Positions 51,004 through 63,536 of a DNA stretch of 64,000 bases are shown piece by piece. Location of the stretch: contig NZ_LT745763.1 in the NCBI RefSeq assembly GCF_900166595.1, forward strand, positions 223,430 to 287,429, written 5' to 3'. The position numbers and the translations under genes are program-made. The notes beneath the pieces were generated by a model. The model saw only the letters and a program-made list of their open reading frames with translations, was not told the origin of the DNA and did no database searches. Positions within the stretch are counted from its first letter, which is position 1. Every line of letters starts with the position of its first letter. The stretch comes from Virgibacillus dokdonensis. Lineage in GTDB: Bacteria > Bacillota > Bacilli > Bacillales > Amphibacillaceae.

Positions 51004-51173
51004 TTACAGTTTAGGTCTTGATACTACCTCCACGCTTTGTGCTTTCTTTACCCCTCTGAATTGCTTTTGTGCTAAACAACTTCTTTATTCTAATAATTCA
51101 CGATTTTGTAAGGTTTTTAAAGATTAATTCTGTTAGAATGGACGTAAGAAGAAAGGGAAAAGGAGGGGGTTGC

Positions 51174-52184
51174 TTGTCTGAAATGAAAGATAAATTTGGA
51201 CGTCCTTTACATGACTTGCGAATTTCTGTGACAGATCGTTGTAATTTTCGTTGTAGATATTGTATGCCAAAGGAAATGTTTGGCAACGATTTTTCGTTTA
51301 TGAAAAGAGAGCAGTTGCTTTCATTTGAAGAGATAGAGCGAGTGGCGAAAATTTTTGTTTCATTAGGAATAAGGAAAATTCGCTTAACGGGCGGAGAGCC
51401 TTTGTTGCGTAAAGATTTACCAGTGTTAATTGATAAGCTAATGTCTATTCATGGATTAGAAGATGTTGCATTGACAACGAACGCCTCATTATTGGAGCGA
51501 ATGGCTCCTCGTTTGAAGGAGGCAGGTTTGCATAGGGTGAATGTGAGCTTAGATGCCATAAACGACGATGTTTTTATGACAATTAATGATGCCGCTTACA
51601 AAACGGAAATGATTTTAAGGGGGATTGATAAGGCTAAAGAAGTCGGGTTAGGCGTTAAGGTCAATATGGTAGTAAAAAAAGGAATGAATGATCATCAAGT
51701 AATTCCAATGGCTACTTATTTTAAGAAACGTGGAATTACGTTGAGATTTATTGAATTTATGGACGTTGGTACAGCGAACGGTTGGAACTTTCGTCAAGTG
51801 ATGACAAAAAAAGAACTTTATGATGAATTATTCAAGCATTTTGCTTTAGAAGCCGTAAACCCTGCTTACGTTGGTGAAGTTGCGAAAAGGTATCGTTATG
51901 TCGGAACGAATACAGAAGTTGGCTTTATTACCTCTGTTTCCGAGTCTTTTTGTTCTACTTGCACAAGAGCAAGAGTTGCGGCTGATGGGAAGCTATATAC
52001 ATGCCTCTTTGCATCTAATGGGTTAGATTTAAAAAGTATACTACGTTCTAATTCTGGTGATGAAGCTGTGCGTGCAGCGATTGTATCGACGTGGCAGAAC
52101 AGAACGGATCGGTACTCGGATGAACGAACAGAAGAGTCGGCAAAGAATAAGACAAAAATTGAAATGTCTTATATAGGTGGCTAA
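51174..52184 (+). CDS. moaA: GTP 3',8-cyclase MoaA
   Basis: A 336-residue radical SAM enzyme that catalyses the first step of molybdenum cofactor synthesis together with MoaC. The N-terminal cluster motif CNFRCRYC and [16 protein letters not shown] are present. The second cluster uses [18 protein letters not shown], and the protein ends with the functional GG. I chose TTG at 51174 because AAAGGAGGGGG lies 6-7 bases upstream; the ATG at 51183 is too far from it. No Moco riboswitch was recognised in the leader. Confidence 0.94.
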
Positions 52185-52302
52185 GTTTCAAGCAATAGAT
52201 GCGTAGATAAATAGAGTGAATCGATGCAAATTCACTTTGCTAAGGACTAATCAAACGATAAACATTATATTTCAAGTGTTTTTAATAGAAGGAGGGGTAT
52301 GC

Positions 52303-52536
52303 ATGGTAGAGGTTTTATTATTTGCACAGCTTCGAGAAGACATAGGAACAGACCGTTTACAAGTAGAGGCTGAAGAAATGACTATTCATGAATTGAAAAA
52401 GCAACTTCAGGAAAGCTATTCGTTATCGCAAATGGAAACAATGATGACAGCAATTAATGAGGAATATGTAATGGATTCAGAAGTGATAAAAGCTGGGGAT
52501 ACAATTGCTTTTATTCCTCCTGTAAGCGGAGGGTAA
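52303..52536 (+). CDS. moaD: Molybdopterin synthase sulfur carrier subunit MoaD
   Basis: A 77-residue ubiquitin-fold protein with the C-terminal PPVSGG tail that is thiocarboxylated by the activating enzyme and delivers sulfur to cyclic pyranopterin. GAAGGAGGGG precedes the ATG at 52303 by 5 bases. The catalytic partner MoaE is not in this window. The neighbours moaA and mobA confirm the role. Confidence 0.92.
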   Translation: MVEVLLFAQLREDIGTDRLQVEAEEMTIHELKKQLQESYSLSQMETMMTAINEEYVMDSEVIKAGDTIAFIPPVSGG

Positions 52537-52554
52537 TTTTTTCTTGAATATAAA

Positions 52555-52615
52555 GTGCAGCAAGACTACCACTTTAATAATCGGAAAATGCAAGTCTAAG
52601 CGGAGATAACAACAC
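52555..52615 (+). repeat. Repeat C copy 3 (degenerate)
   Basis: It begins GTGCAGCAAGACT and ends GGAGATAACAACACC, matching the ends of the copies at 7584-7651 and 43989-44054 with several changes. The pairing is weaker. The rest of 52537-52806 has no gene. Confidence 0.4.
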
Positions 52616-52806
52616 CTAAATAATCTTTGAAAGATCTATGGGTTATATCAATGGGATACTAAACAATCCATGTGGGATAAAATCCTCACTGTATCTCTAT
52701 TGGTGACCTCTTGAAATTTCCACCAATAAAGTCGTCGGTCTTTCACTTTACAGTGTGATGGGTGATTTCTTATTACTTTAAATAGCTCTAAAAAAGGAGG
52801 GCTTCC

Positions 52807-53400
52807 ATGAAACAGGATATAACTGGAGCCGTCATTGCGGGAGGGGCGTCAAGAAGATTTGGCTCCCCAAAAGCATTTGCTAAAAAAGACGGAAAAGCTT
52901 TTTATCAAATTTCCATCGCTGTATTGCGTCCGTTGGTTTACAAGATTTTTTTGGTAACTAGTCCCGCTTTAGCGGCTTGCTTTAGGCATGATGATACGGA
53001 TGTGAAAATCATAGAGGATATACCGCATTATCAAGGGGATGGTCCGCTTGCAGGAATTTATTCCGCAATGACTTCTTGTGAAACAGAGTGGTTGCTCACC
53101 TTGCCTGTCGATGTGCCGTTTATGAAGTCAGAAGTACTAGAGGTTTTGTTGCGGGAGATGGGAGATGAGGTAGACGCAGTTATTCCCATAGTAGATGAAA
53201 AAATGCAAGTCCTTGTAGGGTTATTTCGTTGTACTATAAAAGACAAGATCAAAACGCAGCTTAATCAGGAAGAACGGAAGGTTGATCACTTATTGGAAAA
53301 AATAGCTACACGTTATGTGAAAATAGATGATACCAAAGCATTTTTTAATATAAATCGACAGTCCGAATATCACAAATATGTGGCTAATATAGAACATTAA
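52807..53400 (+). CDS. mobA: Molybdenum cofactor guanylyltransferase MobA
   Basis: A 197-residue nucleotidyltransferase that links GMP to molybdopterin. GAVIAGGASRRFGSPKAF is the GTP-binding signature, and DIPHYQGDGPLAGIYSAM and LLTLPVDVPFM are the following conserved blocks. AAAAGGAGG precedes the ATG. Nucleotides 53027-53202 recur exactly at 63825-64000. moaB starts 14 bases after its stop. Confidence 0.93.
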   Translation: MKQDITGAVIAGGASRRFGSPKAFAKKDGKAFYQISIAVLRPLVYKIFLVTSPALAACFRHDDTDVKIIEDIPHYQGDGPLAGIYSAMTSCETEWLLTLPVDVPFMKSEVLEVLLREMGDEVDAVIPIVDEKMQVLVGLFRCTIKDKIKTQLNQEERKVDHLLEKIATRYVKIDDTKAFFNINRQSEYHKYVANIEH

Positions 53401-53413
53401 GGGGGCTACACGA

Positions 53414-53926
53414 TTGTTACAAGACCATCGAAAGACATCACCAAAGGCTGTAACATGTGCTATTTTAACCATCAGTGATACAAGAAATAAGGAAACCGAT
53501 AAAAGTGGAAGATTCATTCAATCCTTTTTGGGAGAGGAAGGTCATACTGTTTCTGCTTACGATGTAATCCCAGATGAAAAATGCATGATTGAAATGCATA
53601 TAAACAGCTATGGAACAGACATAGAAGCTGTGATTATAAATGGAGGTACAGGCATTTCCAAACGCGATGTCACCATTGAAGCTGTCAAGCCATTATTAGA
53701 TAAAGAATTACCTGGCTTTGGTGAGTTATTTCGTATGCTTAGTTACCAATTGGACATCGGTTCAGCAAGCATGCTATCAAGAGCAGTCGCCGGCGTTTCG
53801 CAAAATCGTGTTATTTTTGCCATACCAGGTTCTAGTGGGGCGGTAAAACTAGCGATGGAAAAGTTAATCTTGCCTGAATTGGGACATCTTGTCATGGAAG
53901 TTAGCAAAGATTTAGAGCAAGGTTAA
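53414..53926 (+). CDS. moaB: Molybdenum cofactor biosynthesis protein MoaB
   Basis: A 170-residue MogA/MoaB-type protein that adenylates molybdopterin before metal insertion. AILTISDTRNKETDKSGRFI, INGGTGISKRDVTIEAVKPL and IFAIPGSSGAVKLAMEKLIL are the family blocks. The start codon is TTG with AGGGGG about 9 bases upstream. It lies between mobA and modA. Confidence 0.92.
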   Translation: MLQDHRKTSPKAVTCAILTISDTRNKETDKSGRFIQSFLGEEGHTVSAYDVIPDEKCMIEMHINSYGTDIEAVIINGGTGISKRDVTIEAVKPLLDKELPGFGELFRMLSYQLDIGSASMLSRAVAGVSQNRVIFAIPGSSGAVKLAMEKLILPELGHLVMEVSKDLEQG

Positions 53927-54043
53927 ACAGGAAAATGATGAAAGAGGCTCGTATTATAAGACGTAAGCTTGAAGAGAGTCAATCACTTTTATTGAATGAA
54001 ATAAAGTGGCAACAATAAGATACGTATAAAAGGATGGAGCAAT

Positions 54044-54850
54044 GTGAAAAAACAAACCATACTCATACTTGTAGCTGTGCTCATCATTATAACTGCTTGT
54101 GGAAATGCATCTAACTCTAACTCAAATGCCAAAGGCTCCATAGAACTTACGATTTCTGCGGCTTCCAGCATGATGGACGTATTAACAGAAATAAAAGAAA
54201 ACTTTGAGAAGGAAAACCCGAATATGGAAGTAACATTTAATTTTGGAGGGACAGGGGCGCTACGGAAGCAAGTAGAACAAGGAGCACCTATTGATGTCTT
54301 TTTTTCTGCTTCTAAAAAAGATTACGATCTGTTATTAGAGGGAGGGTATATTGAACAAGGCGAGGAATTGTTACATAATCAATTAGTTGCTATCCAGCCA
54401 AAAGATGGTTCTGTTTCAACGCTACAAAATGTTGTTAACACGAATCAAAAATTTGCTCTTGGTACACCGGAATCCGTACCAGCAGGCTTCTATGCGCAAG
54501 AAGCATTACAAAAAATGGGTTTTTGGGATGAGTTGCAAGGGCAAATGGTATTTGCTAAAGACGTATCTCATGTCTTGCAATTAGTAAAAGATAAAGCGGT
54601 GTCTGCTGGTATAGTCTATAGCAGTGATCTCCATCGTGTGAACGAAGTAGATATTATAGAGAAAATAGATGGCGCATTACATACCCCAATATCCTATTAT
54701 GTAGCGGTCATTGAAAATGGTAATGAACGTTCTCAAGAAAAGCAAGCAGCGGCAGAACAGTTTTATAACTATGCGCAAAATGAAACGAGTAAAGCGCTAT
54801 TTGAAGCTTACGGATTTGTCATTCGTGATAAGCTGGTGGAGGATACATGA
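54044..54850 (+). CDS. modA: Molybdate ABC transporter substrate-binding lipoprotein ModA
   Basis: A 268-residue lipoprotein. The signal peptide ends in the lipobox IITAC, with Cys19 as the lipid anchor. The mature part opens with ELTISAASSMMDVLTEIKEN, binds oxyanions through FNFGGTGALRKQVEQGAPID and VFFSAS, and is typical ModA. The GTG start has AGGATGGAG upstream. It overlaps modB by 4 bases (ATGA). Confidence 0.93.
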   Translation: MKKQTILILVAVLIIITACGNASNSNSNAKGSIELTISAASSMMDVLTEIKENFEKENPNMEVTFNFGGTGALRKQVEQGAPIDVFFSASKKDYDLLLEGGYIEQGEELLHNQLVAIQPKDGSVSTLQNVVNTNQKFALGTPESVPAGFYAQEALQKMGFWDELQGQMVFAKDVSHVLQLVKDKAVSAGIVYSSDLHRVNEVDIIEKIDGALHTPISYYVAVIENGNERSQEKQAAAEQFYNYAQNETSKALFEAYGFVIRDKLVEDT

Positions 54851-55515
54851 TGTGGTCTTGGCACCCTGTTCAACTTTCGTTAGTCGTAGCCAGTATCGCA
54901 ACAGGGATTGTATTTGTATTTGCTATGATTGTGGCGTATTGGATGACCGAAAAAAATGTGAAAGGACGCGCCATTTTAGAGACGGTTGTCTTCCTTCCTC
55001 TTGTTTTGCCGCCAACCGTCATTGGTTTTTTATTAATTATTATTTTTGGTAATAACAGCTTTGTTGGGCAAGCTATCTCCTGGCTAACCGGACAACCCCT
55101 GTTATTTACCGTCACTGCAGCAGTTATAGCTGCAAGTGTAGTTGCTTTCCCGCTTATGTATCAATCACTGAAAACCGGTTTTCAAATGGTTGATGATACT
55201 ATTCGTGGTGCGGCCAAAGTAGATGGAGCATCTAATTGGAAGCTGCTATTTCTAATTACCATTCCGTTATCCTATCGGTCAATTGCCACGGGGTTTATTT
55301 TAAGTTTTACACGGGCGTTTGGTGAATTTGGAGCAACCTTAATGTTTGCCGGGAATATTCCAGGAAAGACGCAAACCATTCCAACCGCCATTTATCTTGC
55401 TATTGAATCTGGGCAAACAAAAATTGCTACCTATTATGCGCTCATTAGCATTGGTTTTTCGTTTGTGTTGTTGTTTATGATGAACAGATTGACGAGGGTG
55501 GACGTTAAAAAATAG
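54847..55515 (+). CDS. modB: Molybdate ABC transporter permease ModB
   Basis: A 222-residue permease with five to six helices. ETVVFLPLVLPPTVIGFLLI and the ABC-binding EAA loop DTIRGAAKVDGASNWKLLFL, followed by RAFGEFGATLMFAGNIPGKT, identify ModB. It is translationally coupled to modA. No ATPase gene (modC) follows; instead there is a short spacer and an IS256-type element. The ATPase may be elsewhere, as seen in some Bacilli, or was displaced. Confidence 0.92.
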   Translation: MMWSWHPVQLSLVVASIATGIVFVFAMIVAYWMTEKNVKGRAILETVVFLPLVLPPTVIGFLLIIIFGNNSFVGQAISWLTGQPLLFTVTAAVIAASVVAFPLMYQSLKTGFQMVDDTIRGAAKVDGASNWKLLFLITIPLSYRSIATGFILSFTRAFGEFGATLMFAGNIPGKTQTIPTAIYLAIESGQTKIATYYALISIGFSFVLLFMMNRLTRVDVKK

Positions 55516-55817
55516 GAGGGTTGGGAGAAATCATTAAGTTTTAGCTCTAATAACCAACGATCTATTATTATCAGTTATGGCTTATAAATTGAAAAATTGA
55601 TAAGTAGTTTGTTAAGCATTCGTAATGTATATGTTGAAATTATGTATTCAATTATTTAAAGGTTGCTATTTTTAATAGTAATATGCATAGCAGGTCGCGA
55701 GAGTGTAAAATATTTTGTGTAAATAGAAATACCAATTAAACATGTTCATAGAAAAAGGAAGACCCTTTTTGTAGAATAAAGTTAGCACACAAAATTCACA
55801 GAAAAGAGGTCTTCCCT

Positions 55818-56985
55818 ATGAACCATCTTACTACAGATTTAATTGAAGCACTAGCAAAAAAACAAGATATTGAACAAGTTTTTCGTCGTCATTTAGAAGA
55901 AGCTATTAACCAACTACTAAAACATGAATTAACTGTATTCCTGGATTACGAACCGTATGAACGCAAAGGAGTTCATTCAGGTAACTCTCGTAATAGATTT
56001 TATGACCGTACTTTTAAGACGGAGTACGGTGAGCTACAACTTCGTATACCAAGGGATAGGAACTGCGAATTTCAACAACAAACAGTGGCTCCATATAAGC
56101 GTTCCAACGACACGCTGGAACAGTTTGTTATTTATCTTTATGAAAAGGGAATTACAACAGATGAAATCGCACATCTAATCGAACGAATGTACGGACATCA
56201 TTACACCAAACAGACCGTGTCTAACTTAACAAAATTGGTAGCAGAAGATGTACAAGCATTTCATGAACGTAAATTAGAAAAGCGTTACGCATGCATTTAC
56301 TTAGATGCTACTCAAATCCCTATTCGTCGTAACACTGTAGAGAAAGAGTCTGTATATATTGCAATTGGGATCACGGAAGACGGCATAAAAGAAGTATTAG
56401 ATTTTACTATTGCACCAACAGAATCCGCACATATATGGGAAGAATTGATGCAGGAACTATATCAGCGCGGTGTTGAAGACGTTCTACTCTTCGTCTCAGA
56501 CGGTTTAACTGGCATGACAGATGCCATTCACCGTGTCTATCCCAAAGCAAAGCATCAGATGTGCTGTGTCCATGTTGCCCGTAATATTGCTAAGAAGGTT
56601 CGTGTCAAAAACCGTTCAGAGATACTTGGTGACTTTAAAACTGTTTATCATGCCATAGACAAAAAAGAAACCCTGCAAGCGTTAGAACAGTTTCAAAGCA
56701 AATGGGAAAAGACATATCCACGTGTCATTGACGCAGTTGTAAAAAATGAACAATTATTAATATTTTATGAGTTCCCTGCCTCTATTCAACGGAGTATCTA
56801 TTCGACAAATTTAATTGAAGCCTTCAATAAAGAAATAAGAGCAGTTTCCAAACGAGGAGGCTTTGGAACGTTTTCTTGTCACGCGATTTCTAGAGTATAA
56901 TCATAAATTCAGCATGCGCTGCCATCGAGGTTTTGATCAGGCAAAATCTGAATTAGTTGCCATGTTTGAAACTCTGGAGAATTGA
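55818..56985 (+). pseudogene. IS256-family transposase, frameshifted near the C-terminus
   Basis: The first 345 or so codons read as a mutator-type transposase: VHSGNSRNRFYDRTFKTEYG, YLYEKGITTDEIAHLIE, the DDE Asp in CIYLDATQIPIRR, LFVSDGLTGMTDAIHRVYPK, and the Glu in STNLIEAFNKEIR. After RAVSKRGG the frame is lost. The true ending, EEALERFLVTRFLEYNHKFS and on to FETLEN, continues in another frame to the stop at 56983-56985. A small deletion of the KEQFPN-type segment would explain it. The product is probably inactive. Confidence 0.85.
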
Positions 56986-57000
56986 CTTAGAACCCGCCAT

Positions 57001-57173
57001 CCTTGACCTTGTTTACGGTCGTGGTGTATATCTGCGGCGGATGCAGAAAATATAAAACATAAGGGCTCCACCCGCTTTTTTATGGTACCACGACCGTACT
57101 CTTCTATGCTCTCGCTGGCAGGGCCCCCTATACCCAACACAGCGAATCACAAAGAAGAGGCACAAGGTCAAGG
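57001..57173. repeat. Nested inverted repeats inside the IS256-type 3' extension
   Basis: Outer arms CCTTGACCTTGT (57001-57012) and ACAAGGTCAAGG (57162-57173) are perfect. Inner arms TACGGTCGTGGT (57014-57025) and ACCACGACCGTA (57087-57098) are perfect too. The segment is more GC-rich than its flanks and has no open frame. Confidence 0.75.
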
Positions 57174-57316
57174 ACAAGCAGCTAACGCTGTGGCTATAGA
57201 GACTTTCTGATTATGTATTCAGAGCTAACATCTACAAAAGGGGATTTACACAAAATTATTGGTACACCCTACTTTGGTCATATATCATGATTGGTTCCCA
57301 TTTATAAAACATTATT

Positions 57317-57877
57317 CTAACTATTAACTAAATCAGAGTTTTCTTGCTCTCTCAGATAATACATTAATTGGTTTGGAGATGGTAAAGCGGCCTCTGACAA
57401 TACTGTGTCACCTGATGATGCCTCAAATCCCGAAGCATATGTGTTTATAAACACATGGCCATCCTCTTTTAGGCTATTTACATTTCGTTGGGTACTTTTG
57501 TTTTCCCACATTGTCTGATTCATACTTGGCCCTATAAAAATGGGTTTACTATAATTCAACACACATAAGGAAAGCAAATCATCAGCTACTCCATTCGCCA
57601 TCTTTGATAAGAAATTTGCGGAAGCTGGAAGGATTACTAAATGGTCAGCATCCTTAACTAAATTAACGTGAGGTACTTTGTTTGAACTTAAATCAAACGC
57701 ATCTGTATAAACCCCATCTGCCAGTGGTCTGAGTCCATTTGGATTGAGAAAATTAGATGCAGATTTAGTTAGCACAACCTCTACACGATATAAACTTAGA
57801 AGTTCATAAATATAATTAGTTACATTTATAGCTGCTATGCTTCCAGTGATACCGAATACAATTTTTTTATCCTTCAT
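57317..57877 (-). CDS. EpiD-like flavoprotein, candidate peptidyl-cysteine decarboxylase (HFCD)
   Basis: A 186-residue homo-oligomeric flavin-containing Cys decarboxylase. The FMN loop is FGITGSIAA, the catalytic His is in KVPHVNLVKDADHLV (His70), then PASANFLSKMANGVADDLL and the substrate-clamp block GPSMNQTMW. EpiD/MrsD enzymes oxidatively decarboxylate a C-terminal peptide cysteine; the other branch is phosphopantothenoylcysteine decarboxylase. The short length, lack of a synthetase domain and operon with a radical SAM protein and a peptide ending in Cys favour a peptide substrate. GAGGAGG lies 9 bases before the ATG, inside the radical SAM coding end, with an 11-base overlap. Confidence 0.85.
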   Translation of the reverse strand: MKDKKIVFGITGSIAAINVTNYIYELLSLYRVEVVLTKSASNFLNPNGLRPLADGVYTDAFDLSSNKVPHVNLVKDADHLVILPASANFLSKMANGVADDLLSLCVLNYSKPIFIGPSMNQTMWENKSTQRNVNSLKEDGHVFINTYASGFEASSGDTVLSEAALPSPNQLMYYLREQENSDLVNS

Positions 57878-59225
57878 AAACCAAATCCTCCTCAATAATG
57901 TCTAAATATCTTTTGATATTTCTTTTAACAGGAGGACAAGGAGTTTTATTTGCCTCAATTCTTTCTAATGGACAAGCATTGCCCTGGCATGATGGTCTAA
58001 AATAACAGCTTGTACATGCTGAATCCTCGTTTGCCCCTCCTGATAACCATAAAAACAGACGATCCTCGTAAATCTCCATCTCTCCGTCTTCGTAAATATT
58101 CCCGACATGATTTAATGGATTATTAAATGCAACTGTACACTTATAAACCATTCCATCAGAACCAATTACAAATGAGCCTGGAAGAGCAGCATAGCACTCG
58201 CTCCCTCCCGGTTGAAGGGTCTGTTTGTAGAAACTAAAGTCAAATCCTTTGTCTTGAGCGTGGGAATAAAAAGGAAATAATTCTTTCGTATCACAAAGGT
58301 GGATATCACCGCTCTGTTCCCCTTTTAGATTTTTAACCGAAACAAAGTGCATTTGAAACCTTTCATCTGCGGAAAATTCCTTACTTATGTAATCTATATA
58401 CTCGTACATGACAGGAAAGGTCCCTTCGCTAATATTTGAGCGAATCATAATTTGAAAATTATTTTCTTCGAACATATCTCTAATGTTCATCAAGTTCAGA
58501 ACAATCTTGTCAAAAGTTTTTTCTCCGTTTTTACCCACTCTAAATTGATCATGAGTTTCCTTCGTACCATCGAGTGTGATTTGATAACCTAGTACTTTAT
58601 ATCTTAGTAACTCGGTAAATACTTCTGTAGTTAAGTTATACCCATTCGTAGTAATACCAGCCATATATTCGACACCTTTACTATCGCAAATTTCAATTAA
58701 TTCTTTCGACAATTTTTGAATGACATTGAGTGATATTAAAGGCTCTCCACCAAACCATGAGACAACTAATGCTTCGTATTTATGAATGTTATTTTTCACA
58801 TAGTTAATTATCCCTGTTATGGTTTTCTCGTTCATTTCACTTTTTTCAAAGTCCTCATAGCAATACCCGCAACGAAAGTTGCAATCTTCATTCGGCATTA
58901 TGATTAAGTTTAGCGTTCTATCTTCCGATAAACTGCTAACCTTTTGTGCTGTGGCTTTTCTGAATTCATCTATATCACTATTAATCAAGAACTTTTTGTC
59001 CACCAAAAAATCAACCAAACGATTTGTTTCACTGTAACTAATTTCTTTAGATCTCAAAGTATGTAATAAATCATTGGTGTCCCTTCGTGTAAACTTAACT
59101 ATCCTACCAGTAAGACTATTATATAATTTAATGTTTTCCGTACCTCTTTGTATGACATTAAATCTTGATGGTTTCAATGTTAGGTTTTTAACTTTGTTTA
59201 TTTGCGTTGTATCCCTATGGAACAA
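57867..59225 (-). CDS. Radical SAM/SPASM peptide maturase
   Basis: A 452-residue enzyme. Residues 1-90 look like the N-terminal peptide-recognition region of SPASM maturases (LTLKPSRFNVIQRGTENIKL, YNSLTGRIVKF). The radical SAM cluster motif is CNFRCGYC (Cys115, 119, 122), followed by SWFGGEPLISL and AGITTNGYNL. SPASM cysteines include Cys344, 363, 404, 407, 413, 418 and 430, the last group in CTSCYFRPSCQGNACP. Such enzymes form thioether, C-C or similar crosslinks in RiPP precursors. The start is TTG at 59225 with GGGAGG 7 bases upstream. It is cotranscribed with the peptide and flavoprotein genes. Exact reaction unknown. Confidence 0.88.
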   Translation of the reverse strand: MFHRDTTQINKVKNLTLKPSRFNVIQRGTENIKLYNSLTGRIVKFTRRDTNDLLHTLRSKEISYSETNRLVDFLVDKKFLINSDIDEFRKATAQKVSSLSEDRTLNLIIMPNEDCNFRCGYCYEDFEKSEMNEKTITGIINYVKNNIHKYEALVVSWFGGEPLISLNVIQKLSKELIEICDSKGVEYMAGITTNGYNLTTEVFTELLRYKVLGYQITLDGTKETHDQFRVGKNGEKTFDKIVLNLMNIRDMFEENNFQIMIRSNISEGTFPVMYEYIDYISKEFSADERFQMHFVSVKNLKGEQSGDIHLCDTKELFPFYSHAQDKGFDFSFYKQTLQPGGSECYAALPGSFVIGSDGMVYKCTVAFNNPLNHVGNIYEDGEMEIYEDRLFLWLSGGANEDSACTSCYFRPSCQGNACPLERIEANKTPCPPVKRNIKRYLDIIEEDLVYEG

Positions 59226-59243
59226 TTAAAAGCCTCCCTTGTG

Positions 59244-59271
59244 GGATGACCATGTAAAAACACGGCCATCC
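59244..59271 (-). promoter_or_regulatory. Hairpin between the peptide gene and the radical SAM gene
   Basis: On the minus strand GGATGGCCGTG and CATGGTCATCC pair with two G-U wobbles around TTTTTA. No U-tract follows. It ends 13 bases from the radical SAM start codon and just before its ribosome site, so it may adjust mRNA stability or translation of the enzymes relative to the peptide. Confidence 0.5.
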
Positions 59272-59336
59272 ATTTACAATCATAAATTCATGTAAAATAC
59301 CTATTAAACTTGTCCTATCACACTTCAGGTTAAAAA

Positions 59337-59375
59337 TTAGCAAAAAACATTGATAATTTTTGGTGGTCGACTCAT
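59337..59375 (-). CDS. Candidate 12-residue RiPP precursor peptide MSRPPKIINVFC
   Basis: A tiny frame with ATG at 59373-59375 and TAA at 59337-59339 encodes MSRPPKIINVFC. GAGGTG lies 7 bases before the ATG, as good as any ribosome site in the window. An in-frame TGA two codons upstream fixes this start. A TTGACA-17-TATAAA promoter lies just upstream. The radical SAM gene starts 111 bases after the stop and the Cys-decarboxylase-type flavoprotein gene follows. The C-terminal Cys is what an EpiD-type enzyme needs. There is no separate leader region. An alternative reading is a regulatory leader peptide. Confidence 0.65.
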   Translation of the reverse strand: MSRPPKIINVFC

Positions 59376-59421
59376 ACTTATTCACCTCATATTCATTAAC
59401 AATTTTTTACCATTCAAATAA

Positions 59422-59450
59422 TTTATACATTAAAATAAGTTAAATGTCAA
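59422..59450 (-). promoter_or_regulatory. Consensus promoter of the peptide-radical SAM operon
   Basis: On the minus strand TTGACA (59445-59450) is followed by a 17-base spacer and TATAAA (59422-59427). Transcription should start near 59415, about 40 bases before the peptide gene. Confidence 0.75.
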
Positions 59451-59518
59451 TATAATTAGCAAATAAGCAAATATTTTTTAAAATAATTATTGACTTTTAT
59501 TCTAATTTGTTATTAAAT
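59446..59518. promoter_or_regulatory. Divergent promoter region with near-palindromic -35 elements
   Basis: GTCAATATAATTA (59446-59458) and TAATTATTGAC (59484-59494) are inverted relatives that contain the two opposing -35 boxes. The MFS side has TTGACT at 59490-59495 and a weaker TATTAAAT-like -10. The space between holds the direct repeat AGCAAATA/AGCAAATA. A regulator dimer could bind here and control both directions. Confidence 0.5.
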
Positions 59519-59561
59519 AATTTTAACGTTAAAAAAATTTAAATGGAGCTGGTGCTAAGTT

Positions 59562-60812
59562 ATGAAAACTCGAAATTTTATTTTATTGATATCGGGAAGG
59601 ATTGTCACCAATATAGGGGATAGTTTATATGCGGTAGCCTCAATGTGGTTGGTTTATGAACTGACAAAGAATAATTTTTTCACGGGCTTAGCGGGATTTC
59701 TGACTGCAGCACCTATTGCCCTACAATTTTTTATTGGTCCTATAATTGACCGAATAGAACACAGATCAATCTTAATTTATTCTCAAATGCTTCAGGCTGT
59801 TTTATTAGCAGTCATTCCACTCGCTTATTATTTTGATGTTCTATATGCGTGGATTGTATTAACAATTTGTCCTTTAGCCTCTATAATACAGCAATTTGTT
59901 TACCCTACTCATTTTTCAATTTTACCAAAGATTGTTGATAAAGACTCTTTAACAAAGGCGAATTCCTTTATGACCTCCACCTATCAATTATTAGATTTAA
60001 TTTTAATGGGAGTTTCAGGTGTTATAATCGCAATAATGGGTGCTGTGGCTGTTTACATGTTGGATGCTATAGCATTTCTTATAGCTATGACTTTATTTTA
60101 CTATCTCAAATTCCCTGGAACAAAAAATGTTAATGTGGAAGCCGAAAGTAAATTTTCTTTGAAAGAAGAATGGGATACCTACAAATTAGATTTAAAAGAG
60201 GGTTACTGGTTCATAAGGAGATCATTTATACCAAAATTTCTTTTAGCAGCAATAATAGCGAATTTCGTTATTGGTGGGGTCTCTGCAATTTTACCTGATT
60301 ATGCTGCAAATCGAGGTGGTAGTCATATATACGGTTGGTATTTAGGGGCTATGTCGGGTGGTCTTTTAGCCGGTTCCCTTTTAGCCAATGTTTTTAATAA
60401 GATTCCCTTAGGAAGAGTAACAATCATTAGCTTTTTTATTTCAGGGTTGAGTTGGATTTTTTCTGGGGTAACAAATATAACTATATTATCCATTCTTTTA
60501 TTTGGAATAAGCTACATTTCAATAGGTTTGACGAATGTGCTTTTCCTCTCCTCGTTGCAAAATATTTTACCAAGTGAGGTTTTAGGAAGAGTTTTTTCTT
60601 TCGTTGCTGGTGCAACAATGATTGCTTCTCCTTTAGGTTCACTAATTGGTGGTTCTATTGCCACTTTTACAGGAAGTTTTGTTGTGTTTATGTCTGGAAG
60701 TTTAGGAATATTATTTGTATCTTTATACTGGATAATAATTCCAAAATTGAGAAACTTACCGAGTCCCGCCGACTTTGGAGAGGATGGCACTCTAATGGCA
60801 AAGCAAAGTTGA
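59562..60812 (+). CDS. MFS exporter (DHA3-type)
   Basis: A 416-residue, twelve-helix major facilitator of the drug/macrolide efflux type. The opening FILLISGRIVTNIGDSLYAV, the early charged motif GPIIDRIEHRSILIYSQM, and GRVFSFVAGATMIASPLGSL in the C-terminal half are typical. It is transcribed divergently from the peptide operon over a shared promoter region, so it most likely exports the peptide product or gives self-protection (inference). The ribosome site (TGGAGCTGG) is moderate. Confidence 0.85.
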   Translation: MKTRNFILLISGRIVTNIGDSLYAVASMWLVYELTKNNFFTGLAGFLTAAPIALQFFIGPIIDRIEHRSILIYSQMLQAVLLAVIPLAYYFDVLYAWIVLTICPLASIIQQFVYPTHFSILPKIVDKDSLTKANSFMTSTYQLLDLILMGVSGVIIAIMGAVAVYMLDAIAFLIAMTLFYYLKFPGTKNVNVEAESKFSLKEEWDTYKLDLKEGYWFIRRSFIPKFLLAAIIANFVIGGVSAILPDYAANRGGSHIYGWYLGAMSGGLLAGSLLANVFNKIPLGRVTIISFFISGLSWIFSGVTNITILSILLFGISYISIGLTNVLFLSSLQNILPSEVLGRVFSFVAGATMIASPLGSLIGGSIATFTGSFVVFMSGSLGILFVSLYWIIIPKLRNLPSPADFGEDGTLMAKQS

Positions 60813-60857
60813 CGTAACTTGTCCTGCCATTAGAATAGAACGAGGGATGTTGTAACT

Positions 60858-61400
60858 TTACTGATCAAGATAACTCATAATTATATAGTTTACATTGTAT
60901 ATTTCATCTTTTTCAGAATGTTTTTTCTTTCTTGATACAATATCCCTAATTTTTTCATTTACCTCTCTCCATTCCTCTCTCGTTAATTGAACACTAACTA
61001 TGCTCGCTTCAGAAGAAACTATTTCATCAGTTTTATCTAAAAGATCAGATTCGATTCGAGAAATTGCCACATCAGAAAAGGCTTTTAATTGAAACAGTAT
61101 GTATTCCGAGTTTTGATTGGCGTTTTCATGTGAAAAGGTATACTCACCTAACATGCTTGCAGCCGCCTCAGCTAAATAATATTTTTGAGTTAAATTATTC
61201 ACTTTCTTTTCGTCGACAACTTTTATAAGCCCCAGTTCTTCTAACTGGTTTACATGATAATAAAGTTTTGATGGCTTTTCATTTAATAATGTAGCTATTT
61301 CTTTTACGGTCTTTTCTTTATCTTTGATTACTTGTAAGATTCGAGTTCTTTGATAATTGAACAATGATTTTGCAATTTTCGTTTCTTTATCAGTAGTCAT
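60858..61400 (-). CDS. Winged-helix regulator, ArsR-like
   Basis: A 180-residue protein. The N-terminal DNA-binding part reads LFNYQRTRILQVIKDKEKTV, KEIATLLNEKPSKLYYHVNQ and LEELGLIKVVDEKK, an ArsR/HTH_20-type winged helix. The C-terminal ~100 residues are helical (NANQNSEYILFQLKAFSDVA) and likely mediate dimerisation or ligand sensing. GAGGGAAT precedes the ATG. It converges on the MFS gene and probably controls the divergent promoter of the peptide operon. Confidence 0.82.
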   Translation of the reverse strand: MTTDKETKIAKSLFNYQRTRILQVIKDKEKTVKEIATLLNEKPSKLYYHVNQLEELGLIKVVDEKKVNNLTQKYYLAEAAASMLGEYTFSHENANQNSEYILFQLKAFSDVAISRIESDLLDKTDEIVSSEASIVSVQLTREEWREVNEKIRDIVSRKKKHSEKDEIYNVNYIIMSYLDQ

Positions 61401-61669
61401 CCAATATTCCCTCTTTCTATATCTTAATTAAATGTGGTAAAGAATTCTTTATTGTTTTAGACATTTAATGGTTCAGGGGTATCCCTAAACTATCAACAAA
61501 TTAATGAAAATTCAATCAGAGTTAATGTTTCCTGTGTACCATTATAACTCAAATATCAACGTTTGACATTTCCCAATAAAATTGATTAATTTAGTTTTTC
61601 ATAATCACTCTATTTGTTACAATTAGTAATTACACATAACTATAAACTTATTTTATCCTTCGGCCAATA
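61401..61669. other. Spacer between regulator and IS1182-type element, no gene
   Basis: The AT-rich stretch holds the regulator promoter on the minus strand. A TTGACA-like box at about 61565 on the plus strand has no clear gene. Nothing else was recognised. Confidence 0.4.
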
Positions 61670-61670
61670 A

Positions 61671-63536
61671 GGGGCTGTTGCACAATCAGGTAATTGATTG
61701 TGTAACAGCTTTTTTGTGTATACACAAAAAAACAGACCACAAAGGGTCTGCTCTCATGTATTATTAATTTATGACAAATAAAAGAATAATACAAACCCAG
61801 TATACGCAAACTGCAGCAAATTATCAATTATATTTACCGATGGATGTAGAAGAAATGATTCCTATGGATGATTCGGTCCGGCTCCACTGCCTCTTATGTG
61901 AAAGGATGGATTATAGAGAACTACTACAGGCATACGCTTCCAAAGGGAGAAAACCAGCAGTCGATTCAGTCATTCTATTTAAGGTCATTACCTACGCAGC
62001 CTCGCAAAAAATCTACTCTTCCCGAGGGATAGAAAAAGCATGTCGTCGGGATATCAATTTCCGTTGGCTTCTTCAAGGGTATGCAGCTCCTGATCATTCT
62101 ACTATCAGTCGTTTCAAGCAAAAATATCTGACCGATACGGTGATGGAACAGCTCTTCTTTCAACAAGTCGTGTGGCTTTATCAACAAGAAGCGATTACCG
62201 GTGAAACCATCTATATCGATGGCACCAAAATCGAAGCGTATGCCAATCGGTATTCTTTCGTATGGAAAAAGGCAATCACCAAACATGAAGCCAAGATGTA
62301 TACCAAATGGCAAGCCCTGCTGGAACAGATCAATACAACATACTGTCAGATTTTCACCAGTCCTTACGAGACCTTTTTAGAAGATTTGAAAAAAGTGCTT
62401 GTTTTCCTGGAGAAAGTAAAAGCGAAAGAAAACATCACGTTCGTTTATGGAAAGGGGAAAAGAAAAACGGTCCTTCAACGTTATCATGAACAAGTAAAGG
62501 AAATGCTTCAACGTAAAGAACACTACGATACTTCCAATCAGATTATGGGAGAGAAACGAAACAGTTATTCTAAAACAGACCATAATGCCACGTTTATGCG
62601 AATGAAAGATGATCCTATGAGGAATGGTCAACTCAAACCAGCTTATAATGTCCAAGCTGCCGTGGATGCGGAATTTATCGTTGGGATCAATGCGTTTTCC
62701 GATCGAAACGACACAACAACATTGATTCCAATGCTTCAATACGTAAAGGAACATCTTCCCTTTACCTATCGCAACATCGTCGCAGATTCTGGATATGAAA
62801 GCGAAGAAAATTACGTGTATTTAAAGAAGCAAAAACAGACGGCCTATATCAAGCCGCAAAATCATGAACGCAAGAAAAAAGCTTCTTTCAAAAAGGACAT
62901 CAGACACCGAGAAAACATGGCTTATGATAAAAGCACAGATACCTATACCTGTGCCAATAACCAGCAGCTGCATGCCATTAGAAACTACACGCGAACCTCG
63001 CAGACTGGCTATCAATCTAAGGTAACCGTCTACGAATGTGAAGATTGTACAGGTTGTCCGCTCAAAGAAAAATGTACAAAAGCGAAAGGGAATCGCCAAC
63101 TGCATGTAGCCAAGGAATTTCTGGCATACCGGGAAACAGCGCAAGAAAATATTCTAACAGAAACAGGCACACTGTACCGTATGAATCGTTCCATTCAAGT
63201 GGAAGGAACGTTCGGCGTACTGAAGGAAGATTATCATTTGAAGAAATTTCGTACGCGAGGAATAGGTAATGTACGAAACGAACTTTTAATCCTGGCATTT
63301 GGTTATAACCTCAATAAAATACATACGAAAATTCAAGCTAATCGCCTAAACCTCTATTATCATCCATTAAAGACAGCTTAAAAAAATAAAAATAGGCGAG
63401 GCTTATTTAAGTGCGTCAAAAACCGATTAAATTTCCCTTTATCACCATAAATAAAATAATGCATCTTAAAACGAGCAATCTCATATATAAAAAGGAGCTG
63501 TCAGCAAATGCATAATATGCATTTTGCGACAGCTCC
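61671..63536 (+). mobile_element. IS1182-family insertion sequence
   Basis: GGGGCTGTTGCA at the left end and the complement of GGAGCTGTCGCA at the right end form the terminal inverted repeats. Each end also folds on itself: GCTGTT...AACAGC plus TTTTTT on the left acts as a terminator against read-in, and GGAGCTGTC...GACAGCTCC on the right forms another hairpin. One intact transposase lies between. No clear target duplication was found. Confidence 0.88.
61771..63381 (+). CDS. IS1182-family transposase
   Basis: A 536-residue DDE transposase that appears intact. The N-terminal domain has LYLPMDVEEMIPMDDSVR and FKVITYAASQKIYSSRGIEK, and the core has the first Asp in ETIYIDGTKIEAYANRYSFV. NVQAAVDAEFIVG and NIVADSGYESEENYVYLKKQ carry the second Asp. 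The zinc-finger-like CEDCTGCPLKEKC and the C-terminal Glu region RSIQVEGTFGVLKEDYHLKK with FRTRG complete it. Residue pattern and length fit IS1182. Confidence 0.93.
   Translation: MTNKRIIQTQYTQTAANYQLYLPMDVEEMIPMDDSVRLHCLLCERMDYRELLQAYASKGRKPAVDSVILFKVITYAASQKIYSSRGIEKACRRDINFRWLLQGYAAPDHSTISRFKQKYLTDTVMEQLFFQQVVWLYQQEAITGETIYIDGTKIEAYANRYSFVWKKAITKHEAKMYTKWQALLEQINTTYCQIFTSPYETFLEDLKKVLVFLEKVKAKENITFVYGKGKRKTVLQRYHEQVKEMLQRKEHYDTSNQIMGEKRNSYSKTDHNATFMRMKDDPMRNGQLKPAYNVQAAVDAEFIVGINAFSDRNDTTTLIPMLQYVKEHLPFTYRNIVADSGYESEENYVYLKKQKQTAYIKPQNHERKKKASFKKDIRHRENMAYDKSTDTYTCANNQQLHAIRNYTRTSQTGYQSKVTVYECEDCTGCPLKEKCTKAKGNRQLHVAKEFLAYRETAQENILTETGTLYRMNRSIQVEGTFGVLKEDYHLKKFRTRGIGNVRNELLILAFGYNLNKIHTKIQANRLNLYYHPLKTA

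Follow-up and report, generated by a model that had tools for sequence, protein, structure and literature searches.

The window, a 64,000-nucleotide stretch of the Virgibacillus dokdonensis genome, contains a compact three-gene unit on its minus strand (59375-57317), in which a 12-codon frame is followed by a radical SAM/SPASM gene and an overlapping gene for an EpiD-like flavoprotein. The features of the locus, in window coordinates, are as follows.

57317..57877, minus strand: EpiD-like flavoprotein gene, 186 aa, ATG at 57877, probable peptidyl-Cys decarboxylase
57867..59225, minus strand: radical SAM/SPASM peptide maturase gene, 452 aa, TTG start, ribosome-binding site (RBS) GGGAGG
59244..59271, minus strand: predicted 12-bp stem-loop between the peptide frame and the radical SAM gene
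59337..59375, minus strand: putative precursor peptide frame MSRPPKIINVFC, 12 aa, from ATG (59375) to TAA (59339-59337)
59383..59388, minus strand: RBS GAGGTG, 7 bases before the ATG
59422..59450, minus strand: promoter-like TTGACA-17-TATAAA, with TTGACA at 59450-59445 and TATAAA at 59427-59422
59522..59533, no strand: palindrome TTTAACGTTAAA, possible operator, between the exporter gene and the peptide frame
59562..60812, plus strand: divergent MFS exporter gene
60858..61400, minus strand: ArsR-like winged-helix regulator gene (HTH_20)

The promoter, the GAGGTG site, the 12-codon frame, the SPASM gene and the overlapping flavoprotein gene all lie where the original prediction had placed them; the promoter rests on reading of the sequence, since the promoter scan, which accepts only T as the sixth base of the second hexamer, did not report the TTGACA/TATAAA pair. 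TTGACA or TTGACT is also present upstream of the peptide frames in the related loci L004, L001 and L042, and a strong RBS precedes those of L041, L004 and L042. The window frame reads ATG AGT CGA CCA CCA AAA ATT ATC AAT GTT TTT TGC TAA. All five loci folded (the window, L041, L004, L045 and L047) have a predicted stem-loop, with 12 to 15 bp, after the peptide frame (z scores of -2.05 to -4.74); L041 and the window have the same one, while those of L004, L045 and L047 differ in sequence. The flavoprotein gene shares 11 bases with the radical SAM gene, the Pfam domains Radical_SAM and SPASM were found in the 452-aa protein and Flavoprotein in the 186-aa protein, and the nearest named protein relative belongs to Virgibacillus pantothenticus (97%). 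In addition, L041 and L004 retain the exporter gene and a relative of the regulator gene next to the cluster, and each of the three loci has one exact copy of the palindrome, a number that is not significant by itself (0.60, 0.27 and 0.07 copies expected in the window, L041 and L004, respectively, with up to one mismatch).

Under one RBS rule, the two strands of the window together hold 17 small frames of 8-60 aa, and only MSRPPKIINVFC ends in Cys; when the region from -1000 to +1500 of the window radical SAM gene was scanned without a Cys filter, the same frame was the sole one returned. Related frames lie before the radical SAM gene, with a flavoprotein gene after it, in another genome of the same genus (L041, genome G140; MSQQPRIINVFC), in Sediminibacillus terrae (L004, radical SAM protein 69% identical; MADKPVTVNVFC) and in L042 (genome G682, of the same family as the Paenibacillus locus L001, radical SAM protein 55% identical; MAFSVEKEGEEGGSKTINIFC). 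Among these frames, silent changes are found in the codons for N (AAT/AAC), F (TTT/TTC) and C (TGC/TGT). The last six codons of the window and L041 differ once, silently, and the N-terminal half has three replacement codons, while silent and replacing changes over the last six codons of remoter pairs number 1 and 2 (window-L004), 3 and 2 (window-L042) and 1 and 4 (L042-L047). The frame is under selection as a peptide, and the silent codon changes together with the conserved RBS support its translation. An alternative reading, of a regulatory upstream frame or a chance frame with the substrate of both enzymes encoded elsewhere, might be suggested by the presence of only 12 codons and no leader of normal length despite the RRE-like domain of the radical SAM enzyme. 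However, a chance frame is rejected on the RBS-rule scans and the peptide-level conservation with silent codon changes, longer frames with the same tail occupy the same place in L042-L045, the precursor of L048 bears repeats, and a Cys-ending frame is present in every locus with a flavoprotein, all of which makes this reading highly improbable. The description of the peptide as leaderless fits the three 12-residue peptides but does not extend to relatives, which have 21-residue precursors or real leaders. Very short precursors are also known in microcin C7 (MccA), which undergoes adenylation, and in PqqA, which undergoes a Glu-Tyr crosslink; both resemble the window peptide in having little or no leader and differ from it in chemistry.

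The flavoprotein carries the motifs that had been read in it (H70, PASAN and PSMN), and in sequence it comes closest, among solved structures, to EpiD (3.7e-25), MrsD (2.3e-24), AtHAL3a (3.3e-21) and CoaBC (3.5e-17). By fold (model pLDDT 88.9), MrsD and EpiD-type proteins lead, the phosphopantothenoylcysteine (PPC) decarboxylase AtHAL3a ranks fifth, and C175S mutants of AtHAL3a are among the matches. The protein has in common with EpiD and MrsD (LanD) the fold, the active-site His, the PASAN-like and P(S/N)MN motifs, the lack of the PPC-decarboxylase Cys and a linked peptide that ends in Cys, and with EpiD also the FE(A/I)SSG segment. It differs in its partner, which is a radical SAM enzyme with a 12-residue precursor rather than a dehydratase and a cyclase, and in lying on a separate branch of the tree.

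A spare PPC decarboxylase, or another enzyme of the fold with no relation to the peptide, might be considered, given that CoaBC gave the best NCBIfam score (133 bits against a cut-off of 220, compared with 32 bits against 215 for the CypD model, both below cut-off). However, the protein has neither the ACGxxGxGR segment nor the PAMN of PPC decarboxylases: the segment reads FEASSG (EASSGD) in the window protein and FEISSG in EpiD, and PAMN, which occurs in all 11 CoaC/PPCDC rows, is replaced by PSMN. The 17 cluster rows have PSMN or PNMN, save SNMN in P0127 and PNMS in L051. The reductive catalytic Cys of PPC decarboxylases, which the window protein lacks, was found in 9 of the 11 CoaC/PPCDC rows (8 ACG, 1 VCG) and is missing in P0137 and P0138. 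In a 31-row tree, all 11 of these rows stand apart at 100/99 with no cluster flavoprotein inside; on this ground, together with the missing Cys, a CoA-pathway decarboxylase is rejected. Moreover, the gene overlaps the radical SAM gene, the best PDB matches by sequence and fold are EpiD and MrsD, and the Sediminibacillus genome (G552) has a separate full-length CoaBC besides its cluster flavoprotein; a role apart from the peptide is therefore very unlikely. The original prediction had called the protein EpiD-like and would have failed had it clustered with PPC decarboxylases, which it does not; its place relative to EpiD is less sharp, in that the deep forks are weak, the cluster flavoproteins are not one clade, none joins EpiD with good support, and the branch that holds the protein attaches weakly (76/83) to the CoaC half of the midpoint-rooted tree.

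RiPPs with an AviCys ring include class Va lanthipeptides, thioamitides, linaridins and kintamdin, in which the C-terminal Cys undergoes oxidative decarboxylation and contributes its sulfur to a ring formed by Ser/Thr dehydration and subsequent enethiol addition (PMC12291118, PMC9415263). Here, by contrast, no Ser/Thr is kept in the tail. Neither a dehydratase nor a cyclase was found among the window genes scanned (54044 to 63381), and LANC_like matches, present in four of six genomes (in that of the window, G000, on another contig), are absent from G552 and G682, which argues against lanthipeptide-type AviCys formation. The flavoprotein could instead serve a lanthipeptide pathway elsewhere and lie here by chance, as another contig of its own genome encodes two LANC_like proteins as large as LanM; but the pair of enzymes is linked in ten loci, and G552 and G682 carry it without a LANC_like match, leaving this explanation barely plausible. 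On that other contig of G000 (C14), the LANC_like domains at 77269-78282 and 82599-83555 lie in frames of 1009 and 913 aa, so that a lantibiotic cluster encoding a pair of LanM proteins may be located there.

The relation between the flavoprotein and the C-terminal Cys was compared over 34 loci (the window, L003, L004, L005, L041-L053 and L057-L073), with same-place copies counted once. This set covers all places from the genome-set searches and leaves out the loci of the proteins P0007 (Niallia), P0008 and P0012 (Bacillus haynesii, B. paralicheniformis), P0013 (Lysinibacillus) and P0020 (Paenibacillus larvae). In ten loci (the window, L004, L041, L042 and L046-L051) the cluster includes a flavoprotein gene, with an intervening protease gene in three of them (L046, L049 and L050); loci counted as without flavoprotein have none in the fetched stretch (7 to 15 kb, with short contigs in L003, L005 and L069). 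Scanning from -1000 to +1500 without a Cys filter returned 37 small frames across the loci, 14 of them Cys-terminal, and the precursor frame of each locus was chosen by eye. Eight of the ten flavoprotein loci have a Cys-terminal frame within this range; in L047 (MNKNLEQEILELEETLADEVFGEQKTNNNVIC, found with the Cys-filtered scan) and L048 it lies further upstream. The L048 precursor, read by eye as its RBS failed the rule, reads MTKLEQEILAIEAELAGELSGEAQ, then TVPTQNTNNNVC six times in a row, then a stop.

A short Cys-terminated frame, expected at homologous loci, is indeed present in all ten loci with a flavoprotein, compared with 6 of the 24 without (L003, L052, L059, L062, L063 and L064; those of L003 and L052 came from the Cys-filtered scan only, and one of the three frame copies in L064 ends CG). 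Six further loci without flavoprotein (L005, L043, L044, L045, L072 and L073) have a frame that bears Cys elsewhere than at its end, and the remaining 12 (L053, L057, L058, L060, L061 and L065-L071) have a conserved Cys-free frame. By Fisher tests, which ignore descent, P is 6e-5 for 10/10 against 6/24, 0.012 for Cys-bearing frames only (10/10 against 6/12) and 0.001 after manual merging of near-copies (8/8 against 4/15). The most telling contrast lies inside a single radical SAM clade (100/100), where L042, with a flavoprotein, ends NIFC, whereas its Paenibacillus relatives L043, L044 and L045, without one, end NVQCGG, NVVCF and NVQCG, respectively; it amounts to one evolutionary event. Nine of the ten flavoprotein loci fall in one 20-row radical SAM clade (100/97), which also has four loci without flavoprotein and seven database proteins known as proteins alone; this tree omits L005, whose radical SAM frame is broken. 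When whole genomes were searched for the flavoprotein, G550 (L001/L045), G553 (L005) and G551 (L003) each gave a single match, a CoaBC-size frame (414-460 aa). Five further database protein pairs that apparently co-occur (P0006/P0124, P0009/P0131, P0010/P0130, P0011/P0129 and P0013/P0132) also suggest linkage. The link does not run both ways, as the six Cys-terminal loci without flavoprotein rule this out, so a C-terminal Cys by itself does not imply decarboxylation.

The radical SAM protein has a CNFRCGYC motif (CX3CX2C) and seven Cys in the SPASM region, and C115, C119, C122, C344, C363, C404, C407, C413, C418 and C430 are invariant in 32 aligned sequences. Residues 20-446 of its structure model align almost end to end with residues 1-448 of CteB (5why), a thioether-forming SPASM maturase and, by the model, the best-matching solved structure; this alignment points to an N-terminal RRE-like domain, the N-terminal part of CteB being an RRE. 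On the radical SAM core, the scores of anSME and ChlB come close to that of CteB, so the fold does not fix the chemistry. With TIGR04463, the protein reaches 220.4 bits against a cut-off of 525, which places it outside that equivalog; while TIGR04463-like maturases (sactipeptide/ranthipeptide) act on Cys-rich substrates, the window enzyme has a 12-residue peptide with one Cys, and a flavoprotein as partner.

The proposal that the peptide is the substrate of both enzymes is well supported by the conserved frame and by the precursors of the flavoprotein loci, all of which end exactly in Cys. As a whole, the locus is likely to encode a minimal RiPP-type pathway in which MSRPPKIINVFC is a ribosomal precursor without separable leader. 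The EpiD-like flavoprotein would very likely decarboxylate Cys12 oxidatively, with loss of HCOOH (46 Da), to give an enethiol. There is little doubt that the radical SAM enzyme acts on the same peptide, where this RRE-bearing, CteB-like enzyme would modify the conserved N-[V/I]-x-C tail. This tail reads NVFC, NIFC, NVQC or NVVC in the window's clade and NVIC in L047; the L048 repeats read NNVC, L059 has NVFC inside KNVFCGAGC, and remoter precursors (NNCWC, CSGNC, NCHIC) have Asn near Cys at a different spacing. As Asn and Cys are constant, and Cys persists even in loci without the decarboxylase, a thioether is favoured in which the Cys sulfur would be joined to the Asn three residues upstream with a further loss of 2 Da, for which we would give slightly under an even chance. 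Calculated monoisotopic masses for SRPPKIINVFC are 1272.701 unmodified, 1226.696 after loss of HCOOH and 1224.680 after the additional loss of 2H; the corresponding values with Met retained are 1403.742, 1357.736 and 1355.721. A cyclophane or other link through Phe is unlikely, for Phe is not kept among these tails. The MFS pump might then export the small product under the ArsR-like regulator.

Both enzymes could also act on the peptide without the radical SAM enzyme using the Cys sulfur, through a change at Asn/Val or a C-C link, so that a free and perhaps metal-binding enethiol would result; we consider this possible, although on balance doubtful. In the six-repeat Tumebacillus precursor (L048), only the last repeat is Cys-terminal before cleavage, which favours the radical SAM step first, and a radical SAM enzyme acting first would need to leave the thiols free for EpiD-type chemistry; the 12 distant radical SAM relatives beside Cys-free frames are likewise consistent with a sulfur-free reaction. 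On the other side, the nearest clade keeps Cys without a flavoprotein (the NVQCG, NVQCGG and NVVCF tails), suggesting that the radical SAM enzyme needs it, CteB is a thioether former, and a C-C link through Phe would meet the variable Phe position. Because EpiD chemistry requires a free thiol, the flavoprotein is unlikely to act once a thioether has formed, which for the thioether would favour decarboxylation as the first step. The enethiol sulfur could then be bonded to Asn9 by the SPASM enzyme, giving an AviCys-like ring by a dehydratase-free radical route on a leaderless 12-residue precursor. This is put forward tentatively; if true, the route would be a new RiPP class, whose relatives keep leaders, TldD/TldE-like proteases and repeated 12-residue cores.

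Full-text searches of open-access papers, a scope outside which most subscription journals lie, returned no title or opening of an abstract that describes a radical SAM/SPASM and EpiD-like pair, in line with the original prediction, for which no described pathway with these enzymes on an apparently leaderless 12-residue precursor was known. The locus would thus unite two enzyme families, in a pairing absent from the literature searched, on a very small ribosomal precursor of a radical SAM maturase, and it offers a test case of how an RRE-bearing enzyme recognises a leaderless substrate; its three small genes make for easy rebuilding in a laboratory strain. Moreover, the precursors form a natural series (leader with a single core, leader with six repeated cores, 21-residue and 12-residue peptides, with and without decarboxylase) that opens the question of leader loss.

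Proteases accompany the longer precursors, TldD/TldE-like in L047 and S8-DUF1611 in L046 and L049. A TldD/TldE protease for the short peptides is disfavoured, with no PF01523 match in G000, G140 and G552 (4 of 12 genomes matched), an absence that is weak because this model misses the cluster-type pair of L047 found by PF19289. In L048 (reverse complement), the six head-to-tail copies of the repeat at 2281-2631, the last of which ends at the stop codon, are followed by an MFS-like gene, two genes, the flavoprotein gene and the radical SAM gene; the two genes occupy the position of the L047 TldD/TldE pair and were placed by position alone.

The cluster is uncommon. A radical SAM match was found in 4 of 159 genomes of the family (E 1e-60), 18 of 398 in the class sample (1e-75), and 5/344 (1e-105), 2/7 (1e-105), 3/397 (1e-100), 4/19 (1e-105), 0/11 (1e-90) and 2/397 (1e-110) in further sets, where the sets overlap and the centre genome is counted. 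The radical SAM protein matched six plasmid records (best 36.6% identity) and two phage records (30.2%), and the flavoprotein had no match in viral contigs. Mutator-family and DDE transposase genes (55818-56900 and 61771-63381) flank the cluster in the window, and gene content beyond the regulator varies among the window, L041 and L004, both of which would fit a mobile cassette.

In L052, L062, L063 and L064, one to three copies of a short frame with an NCNC end occur near radical SAM relatives without flavoprotein. The conserved Cys-free frames (27-29 aa, such as MKILKPAISPQQAANSGRLSKSVPGNLR) lie some 1.3-1.45 kb past the start of the radical SAM gene, beside enzymes 35-39% identical to that of the window, and are apparently another short precursor family with a chemistry not based on Cys. 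In the window, the segment at 51069-55515 contains the molybdenum-cofactor gene moaA and others, followed by genes for a solute-binding protein and a permease that are probably for molybdate uptake.
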